A stretch of 39,449 nucleotides of DNA, taken from assembly GCF_005144585.1 (NCBI RefSeq), contig NZ_SSMQ01000094.1, forward strand, positions 1 to 39,449, written 5' to 3'. This DNA comes from Polyangium fumosum (GTDB taxonomy: Bacteria > Myxococcota_A > Polyangia > Polyangiales > Polyangiaceae). Positions 14,931 through 20,131 of this stretch are shown in pieces. The number at the start of each line of letters is the position of its first letter. Within the stretch, counting starts at the first letter, position 1. Under the pieces are notes generated by a model. It was not told the origin of the DNA, did no database searches, and worked only from the letters and a program-made list of their open reading frames with translations. Position numbers and translations under genes: made by a program.

Positions 14931-15283
14931 CCCTTGACGCGAGCGCCCCCGCCCTTGCGGAACACGCCCCCGCCCTTGCGGAACACGCCCCCGCCCCTGG
15001 CGCGAGCGACCTCGCCCTTGCGGGACACGACCTCGCCCTTGCGGGACACGACCTCGCCCTTGCGGGACACGACCTCGCCCTTGCGGGACACGACCCCGCC
15101 CTTGCGGGACACGACCCCGCCCTTGCGGGACACGACCCCGCCCTTGCGGGACACGACCCCGCCCTTGCGGGACACGACCCCGCCCTTGGCGCGAGCGACC
15201 TCGCCCTTGCGGAACACGCCTCCGCCCTTGCGGAACACGCCTCCGCCCTTGGCGCGAGCGACCCCACCCTTGTGGAACCGCGG
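14931..15283. repeat. 21-bp tandem repeat (minisatellite), about 16.8 copies
   Basis: Sixteen complete copies and one partial copy of a 21-base unit beginning CCCTTG occupy almost the whole convergent gap between the histidine kinase stop (14911) and the stop at 15285. Three variants occur: D (CCCTTGCGGGACACGACC plus TCG or CCG), N (with CGGAACACGCC) and A (with GCGCGAGCGACC). Their order is A, N, N, A, eight D, A, N, N, A and a partial N-like unit, so an A-N-N-A block flanks the D array on both sides. Because 21 is a multiple of three, the array is open in several frames, but no convincing gene uses it. Confidence 0.95.
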
Positions 15284-15284
15284 C

Positions 15285-15995
15285 TCAGCGGCCGAGCCCA
15301 AGCTGCGCGAGCTGCGCGAGCGACGCTTGCAGCACCGGCGTCGCGACGTGATGCTTGCGCGCGATCTCGACGGGGTCCTCGGCTGAGAGCAGCAGCTCCG
15401 CGAGGAAGGGCGTGATCGGCCCGAGGACGAGCTTTCCGCGCGCGGCGGCGTAGAGCGTGGGCCCGGCCCGCTCGCCCACCGCGAAAAACCCCCCGGGGAC
15501 GACACGAATCTCCCCCGGGAGGGTGAAATCCGGCTGCGGGCTCATCACGAGCGCCTTCATCATCGCCGTGAGAAACTCCGCCTCCAGGATCGCGCCATCG
15601 CCGATCCCGCGCGCGTCGCAGAATCGAAAGAATGCCTCTTCCAGGCAAACGCCGGGACCCGCGTGGGAATACGCGCGATACGCCTCGAAGGCTGGAGATT
15701 CCAGGAACGACGACATCAATGCATCGAGTTCGTGATCCTCGGGATGCGTGGCTCTCCACGCGTCCAGGGTGCGTGCATAGATCGTGAGGAGCCCGCCGCT
15801 CCCCCGATGTTTTCGCTGCACGACATCCGCGCGCACGCGCTCGGCCGTCCTTCGAAGCTGCTCGGGATCGATGGAACGGAGCGCGCGCAGATCGCCTTCC
15901 GACACGTCGAGCTCGTCCACGCGCCCCTCGAAAAATGCTTCCCGGTACGAGCGATGATGCAGAAGCCGGTCGAGCGCCTGATCGAGCGAGATCAT
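15285..15995 (-). CDS. MNIO partner protein, 236 aa
   Basis: A soluble protein with no signal peptide, starting MISLDQALDRLLHHRSYREA. The N-terminal half is helical and has the spacing of DUF2063-type or similar leader/substrate-handling partners of MNIO enzymes (DELDVSEGDLRALRSIDPEQ). The C-terminal half contains two beta-rich stretches and a terminal helix-turn-helix-like segment (VEIARKHHVATPVLQASLAQ) that could be a winged-helix recognition element. The family cannot be named with certainty; the role as partner is inferred from context. Its ATG overlaps the stop of the MNIO gene in an ATGA junction (15992-15995), so the two are translationally coupled and probably made in fixed ratio. MNIO enzymes usually need such a partner to bind the precursor. 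The stop adjoins the 21-bp repeat array. Confidence 0.8.
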   Translation of the reverse strand: MISLDQALDRLLHHRSYREAFFEGRVDELDVSEGDLRALRSIDPEQLRRTAERVRADVVQRKHRGSGGLLTIYARTLDAWRATHPEDHELDALMSSFLESPAFEAYRAYSHAGPGVCLEEAFFRFCDARGIGDGAILEAEFLTAMMKALVMSPQPDFTLPGEIRVVPGGFFAVGERAGPTLYAAARGKLVLGPITPFLAELLLSAEDPVEIARKHHVATPVLQASLAQLAQLGLGR

Positions 15996-16921
15996 GAGAG
16001 CCAGAGGTCCACGGCGGCGCGGAGGCGCTCGAAGCTCGTGACGGTCTCGGGGGCGAGCCGCCCTTCGGCGTCGAGCCGCGGATCTTCGTAGGTGATCGCG
16101 GACAGGTTCGGACAGAGCGGAAGGAGGCGGCGAAGGAGCTCGAGCTGCTCGTCGAGCAGCACGCCGTGGTGGTGATCCATGAAGGAATCGCCGTCGATCG
16201 CGCAGCCCGAGAGGTGAATCTCGAAGCAATGGTCGAGCGGCAACCGTTCGAGCTCCCCGAACAGCGCCTCGCCTCGCTTGCCGAGCAGCCATTGGTAAGA
16301 AAGGAGGTGGCCCACGTCGAGCGTGGCCGGCGACCTCGTCTCCTCGACGACCGCCCGGAAAAAATCATACGCGTGCATGTGGCCAATGAAAAAGCTCGTC
16401 CCGTCCGAGAATCCGGGGAACTCCACGAAGAGCGGCGCCAGGAGCTTCCCTTGCACCTCGGCCGTGTTCCGGATGGCGGCGTCGAGCCCGGCGGGCGTGA
16501 GATACGGCGGCAGCGGATACGGCAAGGGCCTGCCGTGCAGCGACCAGAGGCCGAGATCCTCGTTCACCCACGCGAAGTGGTAGCGCTCGACGAGCGCGTT
16601 CGTGAAATCGAGGATCCGGCCGCGATCGTAGGCTTCGAGCGCGCCCAGGCTGAACGTCGTCTGGTGGAGGGCGCGCACGGAGAACGCTGGCGTACGGGCG
16701 AACAGGTCGTCGTAGGCGCCAAAGTACTCGCGTGGATCGAGGCGATTTCGGCTCCGGGGCTGGAACGACGTGAAGAGATACCGAAAGGCCCCGGCATGGG
16801 ACGACAAGAACTGTACGACGGGATCCGTCACGTGATCCCCGCGGCTGGGATCGTGGGCGAACCCGACGGGCGCGCCCCACGGGAGATCCATTCCGACGCC
16901 CAGCCCGAGGCGCCCGTTCAC
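15992..16921 (-). CDS. MNIO family enzyme (DUF692), non-haem iron oxidase
   Basis: A 309-residue TIM-barrel protein of the DUF692/MNIO family, the multinuclear non-haem iron enzymes that modify cysteines or backbone in peptides (MbnB, TglH and bufferin-type enzymes are known members). Visible family marks are the N-terminal GLGVGMDLPWG (usual 'GVGLGLR'), VNEDLGLWS (usual 'SEHL'), HMHAYDFF near 181, DVGH at 202-205 (usual 'D-nN'), EIHLSGC at about 234-240 and FMDHHHG near 248-253 (usual 'HLAGH...iDtHd'), and TYEDPR near 277 (usual 'iErD'). The metal-binding His/Asp/Glu set therefore looks preserved. GTG at 16921 is used because the family N-terminus follows at once; it lies 17 bases after the lipoprotein stop and the stop overlaps the partner gene. 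The likely substrate is the Cys-motif lipoprotein encoded just upstream. Confidence 0.9.
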   Translation of the reverse strand: MNGRLGLGVGMDLPWGAPVGFAHDPSRGDHVTDPVVQFLSSHAGAFRYLFTSFQPRSRNRLDPREYFGAYDDLFARTPAFSVRALHQTTFSLGALEAYDRGRILDFTNALVERYHFAWVNEDLGLWSLHGRPLPYPLPPYLTPAGLDAAIRNTAEVQGKLLAPLFVEFPGFSDGTSFFIGHMHAYDFFRAVVEETRSPATLDVGHLLSYQWLLGKRGEALFGELERLPLDHCFEIHLSGCAIDGDSFMDHHHGVLLDEQLELLRRLLPLCPNLSAITYEDPRLDAEGRLAPETVTSFERLRAAVDLWLS

Positions 16922-16938
16922 CTCGGGGAAACGGGCCC

Positions 16939-17463
16939 TCACAGATCCTTGGCCGCGTTCACGATGCTGGCGAGCTTCCCCGCGCGCTCGCAGGTGAGGG
17001 CCTTGGACGCCTGGGCATCGTCCGGGCAGGGGTGCCCGTAACAATTCGTGCTGTTCTTGGGCTCGTCCTTGATCAGCCCCCGGACCTCCAAGATCCCGAG
17101 CGCGTTCAGCGCGGCGAGGTTCTTTTCGATGGTCGCCTCGTCGCAGGCGTCCGGGGCGGGGGTCTTCGCGGCGGACTCGGCGACGTCGGCCAATTTGTCC
17201 ACGCGCAACGCGGCGATCTGGCGATGCTTGCAGACCGAGTAACAATGGCCAGAATGCCCAGGCATCTCGAAGTTGACGTGACCCACGTCGAAGACCGCGA
17301 GCGCGCGCAGGCGGGCCATGTTCTCATCCAGCGACATGAGGGCGGCGTTGCCCGCCGCCGGCTCGGGCTCGGCTACGGTATCCGTCGGGTGACTGGAAGA
17401 CGACCCGGCACAGCCGGCGACCGCGCCGACCGCTCCAGCGACGAGGGCAATTTTCAATTCCAC
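16939..17463 (-). CDS. Cys-motif lipoprotein, candidate MNIO substrate
   Basis: A 174-residue exported lipoprotein. The signal ALVAGAVGAVAGC places the lipid Cys at 18, followed by a short Ser/Pro/Ala linker. The mature domain is an internal duplication: repeat 1 (about 46-100) and repeat 2 (about 109-172) each run N-x-A-x-L-x-AL-x-V/I-L/F-x-V, a Cys motif, then KLA-x-V-x-x-AAK. The motifs are C74-Y-S-V-C78 (preceded by GHSGH) and C141-Y-G-H-P-C146; further cysteines are C107 and C158. Six non-lipid cysteines with nearby His fit a metal-binding protein. Position directly upstream of a MNIO gene, plus the export signal, parallels bufferin-type precursors, so it is probably the modified substrate; that is inference. 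GTG at 17463 has AAGGAG 5 bases upstream. I know no named family for it. Confidence 0.85.
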   Translation of the reverse strand: MELKIALVAGAVGAVAGCAGSSSSHPTDTVAEPEPAAGNAALMSLDENMARLRALAVFDVGHVNFEMPGHSGHCYSVCKHRQIAALRVDKLADVAESAAKTPAPDACDEATIEKNLAALNALGILEVRGLIKDEPKNSTNCYGHPCPDDAQASKALTCERAGKLASIVNAAKDL

Positions 17464-17674: not shown

Positions 17675-20131
17675 ATGAACCACGCACGGGGACGGCGCCG
17701 CACGGCCTTCCTTTCGACGGTCCTGTTCTTGCTCGCCGCTTGTGCGCCCCCGCCTCCCGTGCAGCCGGCGGTGAACGTGAGCCAGGACGAACCGCGCCGC
17801 CCTCTCCTCGTGCCCGAGGCGGGCAACGAGGGCGCGGCCGAGGGCGCAGCCGCGTTCCCCGACCCCGGGACGGCCATCCCCGTCGGGCCCGACGCCCCCG
17901 CCTGGGGAAACCCGCTCGCCCCCGTCACCCTGGTCATCTGGGGCGATTTCGAGTGCCCCTTCACGTCGCGGCTGATGGCCACGCTGGCGCTCCTGCAGCA
18001 GCAGTACGGTCCCGACAAATTGCGGGTCGTCTGGAGACACAACCCGCTCCCGTTCCACAAGAATGCGCGTCCCGCGCACCTCGCGGCCGAGACGGTGCTG
18101 CGGCTCGGAGGCGTGAACGCATTCTGGAAGTTTCACGCCCTCGCGTTCCGGAACCAGCGCTCCCTCGACGTCCCCTCCTTCAACGACTGGGCGGCGCAAA
18201 GCGGCATCGATCCCTGGGCCTTCCAGGCCGCCTTCGACCAGCAGCGCTTCGCCGCGAACGTGGACGCGGACATCACGTTCGGCAAAAAGGTCGGCGTCCT
18301 GGGGACGCCGGCCTCGTTCGTCAATGGCATCTTCCTCGCCGGCGCTCAGCCCATCACGAAATTCCAGGAGACCATCGACGCCGAGCTCGAAGAGGCCGCC
18401 GCGCTCCGGCGCGAGGGCACTCCCCCCGAGCGCGTCTATGCCGAGCTCTCCGAGCGAAACCACAAGGAAGCGCCGCCGCCCACGCCGCCACCCCCTCCGC
18501 CGGTGGACTCGGACACGGTCTGGAAGATGCCGCTCGACGGCTCGCCCGCGCGCGGCAAACCGACCGCGCTCGTGACGATGGTCATGTTCGGCGATTTCCA
18601 GTGCCCCTTCTGCAAACGATCCCTCGCGACGATCACCGAGCTCGAAGCCAAGTACGGCGACAAACTGCGCCTGGTGTTCAAGCACAACCCCCTGCCCATA
18701 CATCCGCGCGCCGAGGCAGCCGCCGAGCTCGCCATCGAGGCCGGCGTGCAGAAGGGAGAGGCCGCCTTCTGGAAGGCCTTCCAGGCGCTCTTCGACACCC
18801 AGGATCGCCTCGCGGACCCTGAGCTCGAGAACCTCGCGCTCGCCCTCGGCCTCGACGTGAAGCGCGTGAAAAAGGCGATCACGTCGCACACGCATGCCGC
18901 GCGCATCGAGCGTGATATGGACCTGGCCGAAGACTTCAAGGTGATGGGCACGCCGCATTTCTTCATCAATGGCAGGCGCCTCATCGGCGCGCAGCGCCGC
19001 GAGCAATTCGAAGCCATCATCGACGAAGAGATCACGAAGGCCGGAAAGCTCCTCGCTTCGGGGACGCCGGCCGCGAACATCTACGATGCCCTCCTGAAAG
19101 ACGCGAAGAGCCCCGCGCCCGTGGAGCGAATCCTCGCCCCCGCGCCCACGAAGGACCAGCCGGGCAAAGGCGCGCCGGCCGGCGCCGCGGTCACCGTTCA
19201 GATGTTCGCGGACTTCCAGTGCCCCTTCAGCAAGCGCGTGCAGGCGGACATCGATCAGCTCCTCGCCGCCTTTCCGGGCAAGATCCGCGTTGTCTGGCGG
19301 CATTTGCCCCTCTCCTTCCACAAGCAGGCGCAGCTCGCCGCCGAGGCCTCCGTCGAGGCCTACCGGCAAAAAGGCGAGGCCGGCTTCTGGGCCTTCTCGG
19401 CGCGCCTCTGGGAGGACCAATCGGAGCAGGGCTTGAGCCGCCCGGCCATCGAGCGCAAAGCCGCCGAGGCGGGGCTCGACGTGACGAAGCTCTCGGCGGC
19501 GCTCGACGCGCGCACACACTGGAAGGTGGTCCAGGCCGATCTCGAGCTGGCCGAACGGCTGAAGATCATGGGCACGCCGGCCTTCGTCATCAACGATTAT
19601 TTCGTCGGCGGCGCGCAACCTCTTCACAACTTCAAGCGGATCGTCACGAGGGCCCTGAAGTCGAAAGAGCCGATCGCCTCCGGCACGCTGAAGGCCGACG
19701 CCCGGCAGCTCGTGCCCCTCGTGGCGACGTCGCCGCCGCCGCTGAGCCCGCCGCCCTCCCCGGCTCCGCCCGCGCCCGCGCCCGCGCCCTCCGCGGTGAC
19801 GCCCGCGGGGCACATGGGCGCAAAGCACCTGGTCGTGATGTACGCGGGCTCGAAGCGCGCGCCTGCGCACATCACGCGCAGCCGGAGCGAGGCGCTCGCG
19901 CGCGCGGAAGAGGCGCGCCTGCGATTGCAGGCGGGGGCGAGCTTCAACGACGTCGTCACGCATTACAGCGACGAGCCCAACGCCGGGCAACGCGGGGGCG
20001 ACCTCGGCACATTCCCAAAGGGCGCGATGGTCCGCGAATTCGAGGACGCCGTGCTCAACCTCGGCGTGGGCGAGACGAGCGGCGTCGTGGAGTCGCCGTT
20101 CGGATTCCACATCATCGTGCGGACGCAGTAG
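17675..20131 (+). CDS. lipoprotein: three thioredoxin-fold domains plus parvulin
   Basis: An 818-residue exported protein. The lipoprotein signal (FLSTVLFLLAAC) is followed by three tandem DsbA/Thioredoxin_4 domains at about 70-235, 285-455 and 490-655, and a C-terminal parvulin-type peptidyl-prolyl isomerase at about 715-818 (GAKHLVVMY...EEARLRLQAGASF...GGDLGTFPKG...FGFHIIVRTQ). Active sites differ: domain 1 has C94 in FECPFTSR, domain 2 the redox CPFC (C310, C313), domain 3 C516 in FQCPFSKR. All three keep the cis-proline loop (GTPASF, GTPHFF, GTPAFV). Only the middle domain can form a CxxC disulphide; the others could bind thiols or reduce by a monothiol route. Proline/alanine linkers separate the parts. 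GGAGGAG lies 5 bases before the ATG. Probable role: oxidative folding or isomerisation of envelope proteins, perhaps the divergent Cys lipoprotein. Confidence 0.93.
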   Translation: MNHARGRRRTAFLSTVLFLLAACAPPPPVQPAVNVSQDEPRRPLLVPEAGNEGAAEGAAAFPDPGTAIPVGPDAPAWGNPLAPVTLVIWGDFECPFTSRLMATLALLQQQYGPDKLRVVWRHNPLPFHKNARPAHLAAETVLRLGGVNAFWKFHALAFRNQRSLDVPSFNDWAAQSGIDPWAFQAAFDQQRFAANVDADITFGKKVGVLGTPASFVNGIFLAGAQPITKFQETIDAELEEAAALRREGTPPERVYAELSERNHKEAPPPTPPPPPPVDSDTVWKMPLDGSPARGKPTALVTMVMFGDFQCPFCKRSLATITELEAKYGDKLRLVFKHNPLPIHPRAEAAAELAIEAGVQKGEAAFWKAFQALFDTQDRLADPELENLALALGLDVKRVKKAITSHTHAARIERDMDLAEDFKVMGTPHFFINGRRLIGAQRREQFEAIIDEEITKAGKLLASGTPAANIYDALLKDAKSPAPVERILAPAPTKDQPGKGAPAGAAVTVQMFADFQCPFSKRVQADIDQLLAAFPGKIRVVWRHLPLSFHKQAQLAAEASVEAYRQKGEAGFWAFSARLWEDQSEQGLSRPAIERKAAEAGLDVTKLSAALDARTHWKVVQADLELAERLKIMGTPAFVINDYFVGGAQPLHNFKRIVTRALKSKEPIASGTLKADARQLVPLVATSPPPLSPPPSPAPPAPAPAPSAVTPAGHMGAKHLVVMYAGSKRAPAHITRSRSEALARAEEARLRLQAGASFNDVVTHYSDEPNAGQRGGDLGTFPKGAMVREFEDAVLNLGVGETSGVVESPFGFHIIVRTQ

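Follow-up and report, generated by a model that had tools for sequence, protein, structure and literature searches.

A compact MNIO operon of Polyangium fumosum that very probably encodes its own substrate, a tandemly duplicated lipoprotein with two Cys-Tyr sites

The window analyzed here, the whole stretch of 39,449 nucleotides of contig NZ_SSMQ01000094.1 from Polyangium fumosum (host genome, 12.98 Mb), carries a three-gene operon on its minus strand in which a lipoprotein gene is followed by genes for a multinuclear nonheme iron-dependent oxidative enzyme (MNIO) and a partner protein, and the question raised by this locus is what the enzyme acts upon and by which chemistry. We conclude that the lipoprotein is very probably the MNIO substrate and that its two Cys-Tyr sites are probably where it is modified. 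The account that we favor, with somewhat better than even confidence as a whole, is that the operon encodes a dedicated modifying pair, the MNIO and a partner with a recognition element of the kind known from ribosomally synthesized and post-translationally modified peptides (RiPP recognition element, RRE), together with its own substrate, an exported lipoprotein, and that this pair oxidizes both Cys-Tyr sites before export, more likely by hydroxylating Tyr than by oxidizing Cys.

An earlier note on this DNA, made without database searches, had reported a Cys-motif lipoprotein, an MNIO and a partner protein at this place, and all three genes were confirmed on the minus strand, joined by 4-base GTGA and ATGA overlaps:

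16939..17463, minus strand: lipoprotein, putative MNIO substrate, 174 aa, GTG start, with a signal peptide, the lipobox AVAG-C18 and two tandem leader-like/Cys-Tyr units
15992..16942, minus strand: MNIO of the PbsC/BipE clade, 316 aa (PF05114, tree, phmmer, and the ligands H93, D129, E174, D209, H212, H243, D256, H258 and E286)
15285..15995, minus strand: partner, 236 aa, of PME-type 2 (DUF2063-like plus RRE), PbsD/BipF homologue (phmmer, AlphaFold2, VIA-align)

The MNIO frame can open at GTG 16942, where it overlaps the lipoprotein stop by 4 bases (GTGA), or at the alternative internal start GTG 16921; the 17-base gap proposed earlier between the two genes holds for the latter start and is replaced by the overlap with the former. 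The ATGA through which the partner gene (15995-15285) overlaps the MNIO end was found as described. Pairwise ratios of nonsynonymous to synonymous substitution rates (dN/dS) among four congeners were 0.27-0.78 for the lipoprotein, 0.10-0.15 for the MNIO and 0.23-0.40 for the partner, and the three frames are therefore taken to be real genes.

The enzyme matched PF05114 (E 2.5e-13, 50.3 bits, cut-off 25) and so belongs to the MNIO superfamily. Curated MNIO subfamilies scored far below their cut-offs (ApyH, 44 of 400 bits; BufB, 41 of 310), and sequence comparison with the PDB returned weak matches only. A Peribacillus PbsC homologue found the window MNIO at E 2e-116 (phmmer); for the same-genome paralogues of the window MNIO the value was 1.2e-12 or weaker. 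A pattern-based contig scan with the MNIO alignment yielded 35 loci, and in a tree of 39 rows (two of which, from loci L013 and L037, were added by hand) 37 clade members stood apart, with support of 100/100, from an outgroup of two rows only, the same-genome paralogues. Within this tree the FRF- and YTY-type enzymes form a group (95/66, drawn open) that excludes the lipoprotein-type enzymes, which branch from a poorly resolved backbone. A long-branched clade member with its partner was also seen in a Pseudomonas metagenome-assembled genome (L047, 135-1872), where the upstream precursor region is lost at the contig end.

The PbsC ligands predicted by AlphaFold 3 (H97, D133, E178/H216, D260, H262/D213, H247, E290; PMC12257519) are held by the window MNIO in nine of nine cases at a constant offset of 4, the numbering having been checked on the Peribacillus homologue (L034). 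All nine are identical in the 35 lipoprotein- and biphenomycin-type rows, one of which (L065, with undetermined bases) is gapped at four of them; this alignment includes L013 and leaves out L037. Asp129 and His212 are replaced by His and Asn in five other MNIOs, namely two same-genome paralogues, 3bww, TglH and MbnB, the comparison going via a paralogue for MbnB and, in the case of TglH, at the Asp129 site. E286 was also considered as a clade-diagnostic ligand and was dropped, the surrounding alignment being uncertain, and D129 and H212 alone were used. Tree, ligands and phmmer match place the window MNIO in the biphenomycin (PbsC/BipE) clade, which hydroxylates Phe and, in substrate variants, Tyr at C-delta-1 (PMC12257519). 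The analogy drawn in the earlier note with MNIOs that modify Cys or Asn/Asp is not supported in the form given there, the closest characterized enzymes being ones that hydroxylate Phe/Tyr rings.

Within the lipoprotein gene, the following features were delimited:

17410..17463, minus strand: signal peptide through lipobox Cys18 (by eye from the sequence; C18 in 18 of 18 homologues)
17230..17334, minus strand: unit 1, residues 44-78, leader-like helix-strand plus CYSVC loop (alignment, model, profile comparison)
17239..17244, minus strand: Cys74-Tyr75, proposed modification site 1 (each residue kept by 16 of the 18 homologues, and the pair together by 15)
17026..17133, minus strand: unit 2, residues 111-146, leader-like helix-strand plus CYGHPC loop (alignment, model, profile comparison)
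17038..17043, minus strand: Cys141-Tyr142, proposed modification site 2 (both residues in 18 of 18)
17143..17145, minus strand: Cys107, probable disulfide partner of Cys158 (co-occurrence across the 18 homologues)
16990..16992, minus strand: Cys158, probable disulfide partner of Cys107 (co-occurrence across the 18 homologues)

In the alignment of these 18 homologues, in which the L039 row starts at an arbitrary codon, the only invariant columns are Cys18 of the lipobox, Leu55, Leu122, Cys141 and Tyr142. Judged by sequence only, the lipoprotein has the lipobox expected of an MNIO-associated precursor of the DAG-RiPP kind, Cys18 being present throughout. The second Cys of each loop (78 and 146) is kept in 16 of 18 in either case. 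The Cys near column 107 and Cys158 are both present in 10 homologues and both absent from seven, with the first alone in one, and this joint gain and loss points to a disulfide rather than to a target of modification.

A duplicated motif had been remarked upon earlier, and it proved to be above chance: profiles of unit 1 and unit 2 (16 sequences each) aligned in hhalign with E 2.2e-15 and a score of 59.4, whereas 100 column shuffles gave 17.7 at most, which identifies the 174-residue lipoprotein as a tandem duplication. Its AlphaFold2 model (mean predicted local distance difference test score, pLDDT, 86) has a helix-strand-loop-helix arrangement twice, with Cys-Tyr in each loop; averaged over ten residues, pLDDT reaches 95-98 through most of the mature domain, falls to 79-87 at residues 61-80 (site 1) and is lower before residue 41. 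Foldseek returned nothing at E 0.001 and VIA-align no row above Z 3.1, so that no known fold is claimed or excluded. The profile comparison with Pfam suggested in the earlier note gave no family for either the 174- or the 236-residue protein; the window lipoprotein had no NCBIfam match either, and a family scan of the 18 homologues produced one weak Pilus_CpaD match, in one member.

The distribution of the lipoprotein follows that of the enzyme closely. The lipoprotein profile matched 10 genomes among 317 of the class and 11 among 377 of the phylum, and MNIO matches were found in 13 of 289 genomes and 12 of 377 phylum genomes; the samples overlap, and the counts that follow refer to their union, within Myxococcota. 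All 16 genomes with the lipoprotein also carry this MNIO, the lipoprotein gene lying directly upstream of the MNIO gene in 15 of them (gap up to ~170 bases by match ends), and this agrees with the co-occurrence across myxobacteria that the earlier note had anticipated. Conversely, 16 of the 19 MNIO genomes have the lipoprotein. The other three are G122 and G102, which have FHAFRF peptides, and the congener G197, in which remnants correspond to MNIO residues 1-154, partner residues 180-236 (window query) and the lipoprotein tail 144-174: all three cassette genes have decayed together. Another congener, G178, has neither lipoprotein nor MNIO. Lipoprotein homologues without this MNIO, the finding that by the earlier note would refute its proposal, were not seen in the Myxococcota samples, other phyla being covered only via 12 chosen genomes with biphenomycin-type or unassigned MNIO loci. 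Of these, 0 of 12 gave a lipoprotein match, an empty answer that by itself shows nothing, as the search had no positive control (and L036 and L053, two of the 12, are the genomes G122 and G102 already counted). The MNIO of G056 is preceded by a remnant of 45 residues (signal peptide plus tail), and a full-length lipoprotein copy is located on another contig. Near this orphan copy (L077, contig C414, ~1900-2500), two open reading frames (ORFs) with double-glycine-type leaders were seen by eye close to an ABC-transporter-like ORF, and the locus looks bacteriocin-type.

Biphenomycin-type precursors share LxxLEVIExxEL ahead of their core, and the lipoprotein units share LxxLxxLxIVEVxxLV ahead of Cys-Tyr. 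The family profile alignment brought both motifs into one register with the acidic residue of VIE aligned. The hhalign scores, 16.4 for the leader and 17.7 when the core was included, were reached by 0 of 150 column shuffles in either test (highest shuffled values 9.2 and 14.9), and none of 120 windows of the MNIO and partner profiles scored as high (maxima 10.4 and 14.4). The best lipoprotein windows begin at residues 45 and 109, which are the two units. Counted from the acidic residue, the hydroxylated Phe/Tyr of the Pbs substrate are at +13 and +15, and among the lipoproteins 31 of 34 units place Cys at +15 (the others being unit 1 of L009 and unit 2 of L061 and of L075), with Tyr directly after Cys in 33 of 34; these 34 leave out a third CY match in L037 and take one unit each from L039 and L063. 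With the leader-plus-core profile, lipoproteins were six of the top eight among 2637 ORFs. In a Mann-Whitney rank test p was 5e-10 with the core and 4e-6 for the leader only, values that treat related sequences as independent and are read as support, not as probability; 4 of the 18 lipoprotein ORFs (with core) and 6 of the 18 (leader only) received no score at all. Scoring single lipoproteins with the biphenomycin profile was dropped as not significant, and the leader link is one between family profiles, not one made by the window protein alone. With the MNIO present in every lipoprotein genome sampled and the repeats resembling, at the family level, the precursor leader of the same clade, the earlier proposal that the lipoprotein is the substrate very probably holds.

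The partner matched no Pfam family at E up to 10, and the Pfam DUF2063 signature by which PME-type 1 partners are recognized was absent from it; its N-terminus gave a weak Os1348-type match (E 0.0038, 17 bits against a cut-off of 40). A single Peribacillus partner sequence found the window partner at E 1e-18 (phmmer), and the partner is therefore considered a PbsD/BipF relative. A profile search agrees with this kinship, the profile having already contained two myxobacterial biphenomycin-type partners. For the AlphaFold2 model of the partner (pLDDT 91), Foldseek alone returned nothing at E 0.001, and the first five rows in VIA-align were all MNIO partners: NGO1945 (3dee; Z 9.7, 157 residues), TglI (9.7 over 206 residues and 9.4 over 207) and MbnC (7.7 over 153 residues, and 6.7). 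Below them came peptide-modifying proteins, among them MibB, TbtB and, with leader peptides, TbiB1 and lasso B1; rows for GdmN, at Z 5-6, were interspersed. According to a warning of the tool, Z values of this magnitude may reflect a common arrangement, and the weight lies on the identity of the top rows. As modeled, the partner has the PME-type 2 architecture described in PMC12452194, a DUF2063-like helical domain plus an RRE fold, without the Pfam signature:

15285..15509, minus strand: C-terminal winged-helix RRE-like part of the partner, residues ~163-236 (TbiB1 with leader peptide: Z 6.6, 69 residues, 2.5 A)

The earlier remark that the partner is not a clear DUF2063 member is right as far as Pfam goes, which misses it, but not for the fold, which resembles DUF2063/RRE partners. 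MNIO and partner form one open frame in four loci (L020, L013/L025, L028 and L061; L065 is also single-frame and is excluded from this count for its undetermined bases). Of the 18 lipoprotein-type MNIO loci, 17 showed partner sequence, L063 only weakly; the L037 contig ends ~660 bases past the MNIO.

Precursors of the Pbs and Bip pathways are FHAFRF, FHTFMF or YHxYxY peptides (PMC12257519, PMC12707348). Such peptides were found in 20 locus entries, representing 18 distinct loci, from Streptomyces, Embleya, Nonomuraea, Peribacillus, Tumebacillus, Nannocystis and Paraliomyxa, and none occurs in the window or in the lipoprotein-type loci, which are in this respect not of the biphenomycin type. 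A loose peptide motif gave one match in L065 and one inside a 443-codon window frame, neither precursor-like. Radical SAM queries from L023, L026 and L034 had 0 matches at E 1e-4 when run against the window and 21 loci (2637 ORFs together), which include all 18 lipoprotein-type ones, some of them on short contigs (L033, 3.0 kb); JmjC-type, arginase-like and other Nannocystis, Paraliomyxa and Peribacillus cluster queries likewise found nothing at E 1e-4 in the 18 lipoprotein-type loci. Labels such as arginase-like were read from cluster position and the papers, Pfam having been run on two Nannocystis proteins only. Among the biphenomycin-cluster queries, only MNIO and partner matched ORFs of lipoprotein-type loci. 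Myxobacterial biphenomycin-type clusters themselves were observed in Nannocystis pusilla (L023/L036) and Paraliomyxa miuraensis (L026/L053), with an FHAFRF peptide, a radical SAM protein with a B12-binding domain, an MNIO, a partner and a JmjC-type protein, identified by Pfam in the former and by similarity in the latter.

Of the known systems, PbsCD and BipEF (PMC12257519, PMC12707348) are most readily compared with the window: they share its MNIO clade, the nine predicted ligands and a homologous RRE partner, as well as a leader motif related at the family level and a target spacing within 1-2 residues, but their substrate is a small FHAFRF or YHxYxY peptide, whereas that of the window would be an exported, probably folded, two-unit Cys-Tyr lipoprotein. 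DybA and NedA (DAG-RiPPs, or RiPP-lipoprotein hybrids; PMC12636315) are MNIO-associated precursors with a lipoprotein signal peptide, as in the window, but belong to the ChrH and oxazolin groups and have CPxCGxG or EGKCG motifs; the mining in that paper used a length limit of 50-160 aa, below 174 aa. Bufferins and oxazolins (PMC12452194) have the same precursor-MNIO-partner order, an export signal and a DUF2063/RRE-type partner, and bufferins also exist in tandem-duplicated forms (the 12-Cys Buf2), which invites comparison with the duplicated window lipoprotein. However, the BufB score of the window MNIO (41 bits against 310) and the lack of a DUF2282 signature or any Pfam family in the lipoprotein set the window apart from bufferins, and large exported-precursor groups in PMC12452194 go with PME-type 1 rather than PME-type 2 partners. 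TglHI (pearlin) and MbnBC (methanobactin) also combine an MNIO with a partner, and the window partner model resembles TglI and MbnC, but these systems modify Cys, and the residues that align with Asp129 and His212 are His and Asn in their enzymes (an alignment made in part through a paralogue).

The same genome was also seen to hold a second MNIO cassette (L029:9081-11131, contig C114), with an 86-aa Cys-containing lipoprotein-like ORF, a BufB-type MNIO (351.6 bits, above 310) and a DUF2063/NGO1945_C partner, and a third MNIO (L030:9730-11458, contig C178) with BufB as its best match at 207 bits, under the cut-off, and a partner whose C-terminus is weakly PqqD-like and whose N-terminus weakly resembles Frankia_peptide, each below the Pfam cut-off.

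We propose that in the cytoplasm the partner RRE would bind the leader-like strand (LxxLxIVEVxxL) of each unit by beta-addition, and that the multi-iron center of the MNIO would, with O2, oxidize the Cys-Tyr site 15-16 residues downstream of the leader. The most likely chemistry would be ring (C-delta-1) hydroxylation of Tyr75 and Tyr142, as carried out by PbsCD on Phe/Tyr at a near-equal position; Tyr hydroxylation is preferred to Cys oxidation, at even chances or slightly above, because the PbsC clade does so on Phe/Tyr and Tyr142 never varies. Sec export, lipidation at Cys18 and folding would follow. Because relatives of the radical SAM, arginase-like and JmjC-type proteins were not found in the lipoprotein loci, the lipoprotein would be kept whole after modification, and the mature product would be a membrane-anchored, duplicated fold with two Cys/hydroxy-Tyr sites. 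Operon, clade, ligands, duplication, conservation and co-occurrence were read from sequence and the partner fold from a model; from these we infer binding of the leader-like strand by the RRE, action before export, lipidation and oxidation at Cys-Tyr.

Several observations weigh against parts of this account. Nearly all of the copies behind the lipoprotein profiles lie next to an MNIO, so that divergent orphans could escape detection, and the tree has, besides its poorly resolved backbone, a bootstrap that had not settled. Single lipoproteins were not significant against the biphenomycin profile (best E 0.29, with core); the top two ORFs with the leader-only profile were not lipoproteins, which make up 4 of the best 25, and 169 of 996 length-matched ORFs scored as high as the window lipoprotein, to which the leader-only profile gives no score. 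The leader-like stretch is predicted within the folded domain and must therefore be reached before folding. Finally, it is Cys and not Tyr that stands exactly at +15, and in unit 1 of L013 (C-A-Y) the Cys stays and the Tyr shifts, which favors Cys as the target. With the same substrate and recognition, the MNIO may instead oxidize Cys74 and Cys141 in a four-electron reaction, to thiooxazole or oxazolone/thioamide, giving a membrane-anchored metal-binding, for example copper-buffering, lipoprotein. We consider this unlikely, although Cys is the target of most characterized MNIOs (PMC12452194), C141 is invariant and at +15 Cys is as regular as counted above, and in the lipoprotein NedA each motif undergoes a change of -4 Da (PMC12636315). 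The nearest characterized enzymes, PbsC and BipE, hydroxylate aromatic rings; D129 and H212 set the window enzyme apart from TglH, MbnB, 3bww and two same-genome paralogues; Tyr142 is as invariant as Cys141; and Pfam and NCBIfam scans gave no bufferin signature. The metal-binding product expected in the earlier note is not supported as it was stated.

It is improbable that the lipoprotein is a companion, serving for example in resistance, in sensing or as a carrier, of an MNIO that acts on an unannotated peptide. A folded lipoprotein of 174 residues would be an unusual precursor, and it evolves faster than the enzyme by dN/dS, but its gene comes first, as the precursor gene does in bufABC (PMC12452194), both repeats carry leader-like units, and no FHAFRF, FHTFMF or YHxYxY peptide was found beside it, in a scan of known motifs that leaves other kinds of peptide possible. 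By analogy with a second activity of BipEF, which cut their own precursor in vitro when Fe and DTT were omitted, the MNIO pair might mainly be a cleaving maturase of the lipoprotein; this is very improbable, for the cleavage by BipEF occurred only without additives, and hydroxylation prevailed with Fe and DTT (PMC12707348).

In the comparison of neighbor families, which covered the window and 14 loci (the gene caller performed poorly on L025), no shared fourth gene was found in lipoprotein loci beyond same-genus synteny. A divergent DsbA/parvulin gene was considered as a fourth cassette member and dropped because it recurs only in same-genus loci, where it adjoins the cassette; in the window (17675-20131) it encodes a PpiC-type rotamase as well as three thioredoxin stretches that are DsbA-like. 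A 21-bp tandem array of 15.5 copies (14947-15272) follows immediately downstream of the partner gene.

MNIO-modified lipoproteins have already been published (DybA and NedA; PMC12636315), and the idea alone is not new. In the article texts and passages covered by the literature search we found no account of a PbsC-clade enzyme with a lipoprotein as its substrate; PMC12452194 reports many unnamed small precursor groups, which could include the window lipoprotein. As a tentative and rather doubtful extension of the account favored here, hydroxylation of Tyr in the lipoprotein, the biphenomycin ring-hydroxylase branch may have been recruited for aromatic modification inside a folded, membrane-anchored lipoprotein that arose by tandem duplication of a leader-plus-core unit, each adjacent Cys-hydroxyTyr pair being a protein-derived redox or metal-binding site. 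The operon offers a compact two- or three-gene test system, in which +16 per Tyr and -4 per Cys are separable by one mass spectrum. If the favored account is true, the locus would depart from the pairing of exported precursors with PME-type 1 partners that has been reported (PMC12452194), MNIO ring hydroxylation would extend from small antibiotic precursors to a structured lipoprotein, and a known recognition leader would be linked to a protein with leaders built into its fold.

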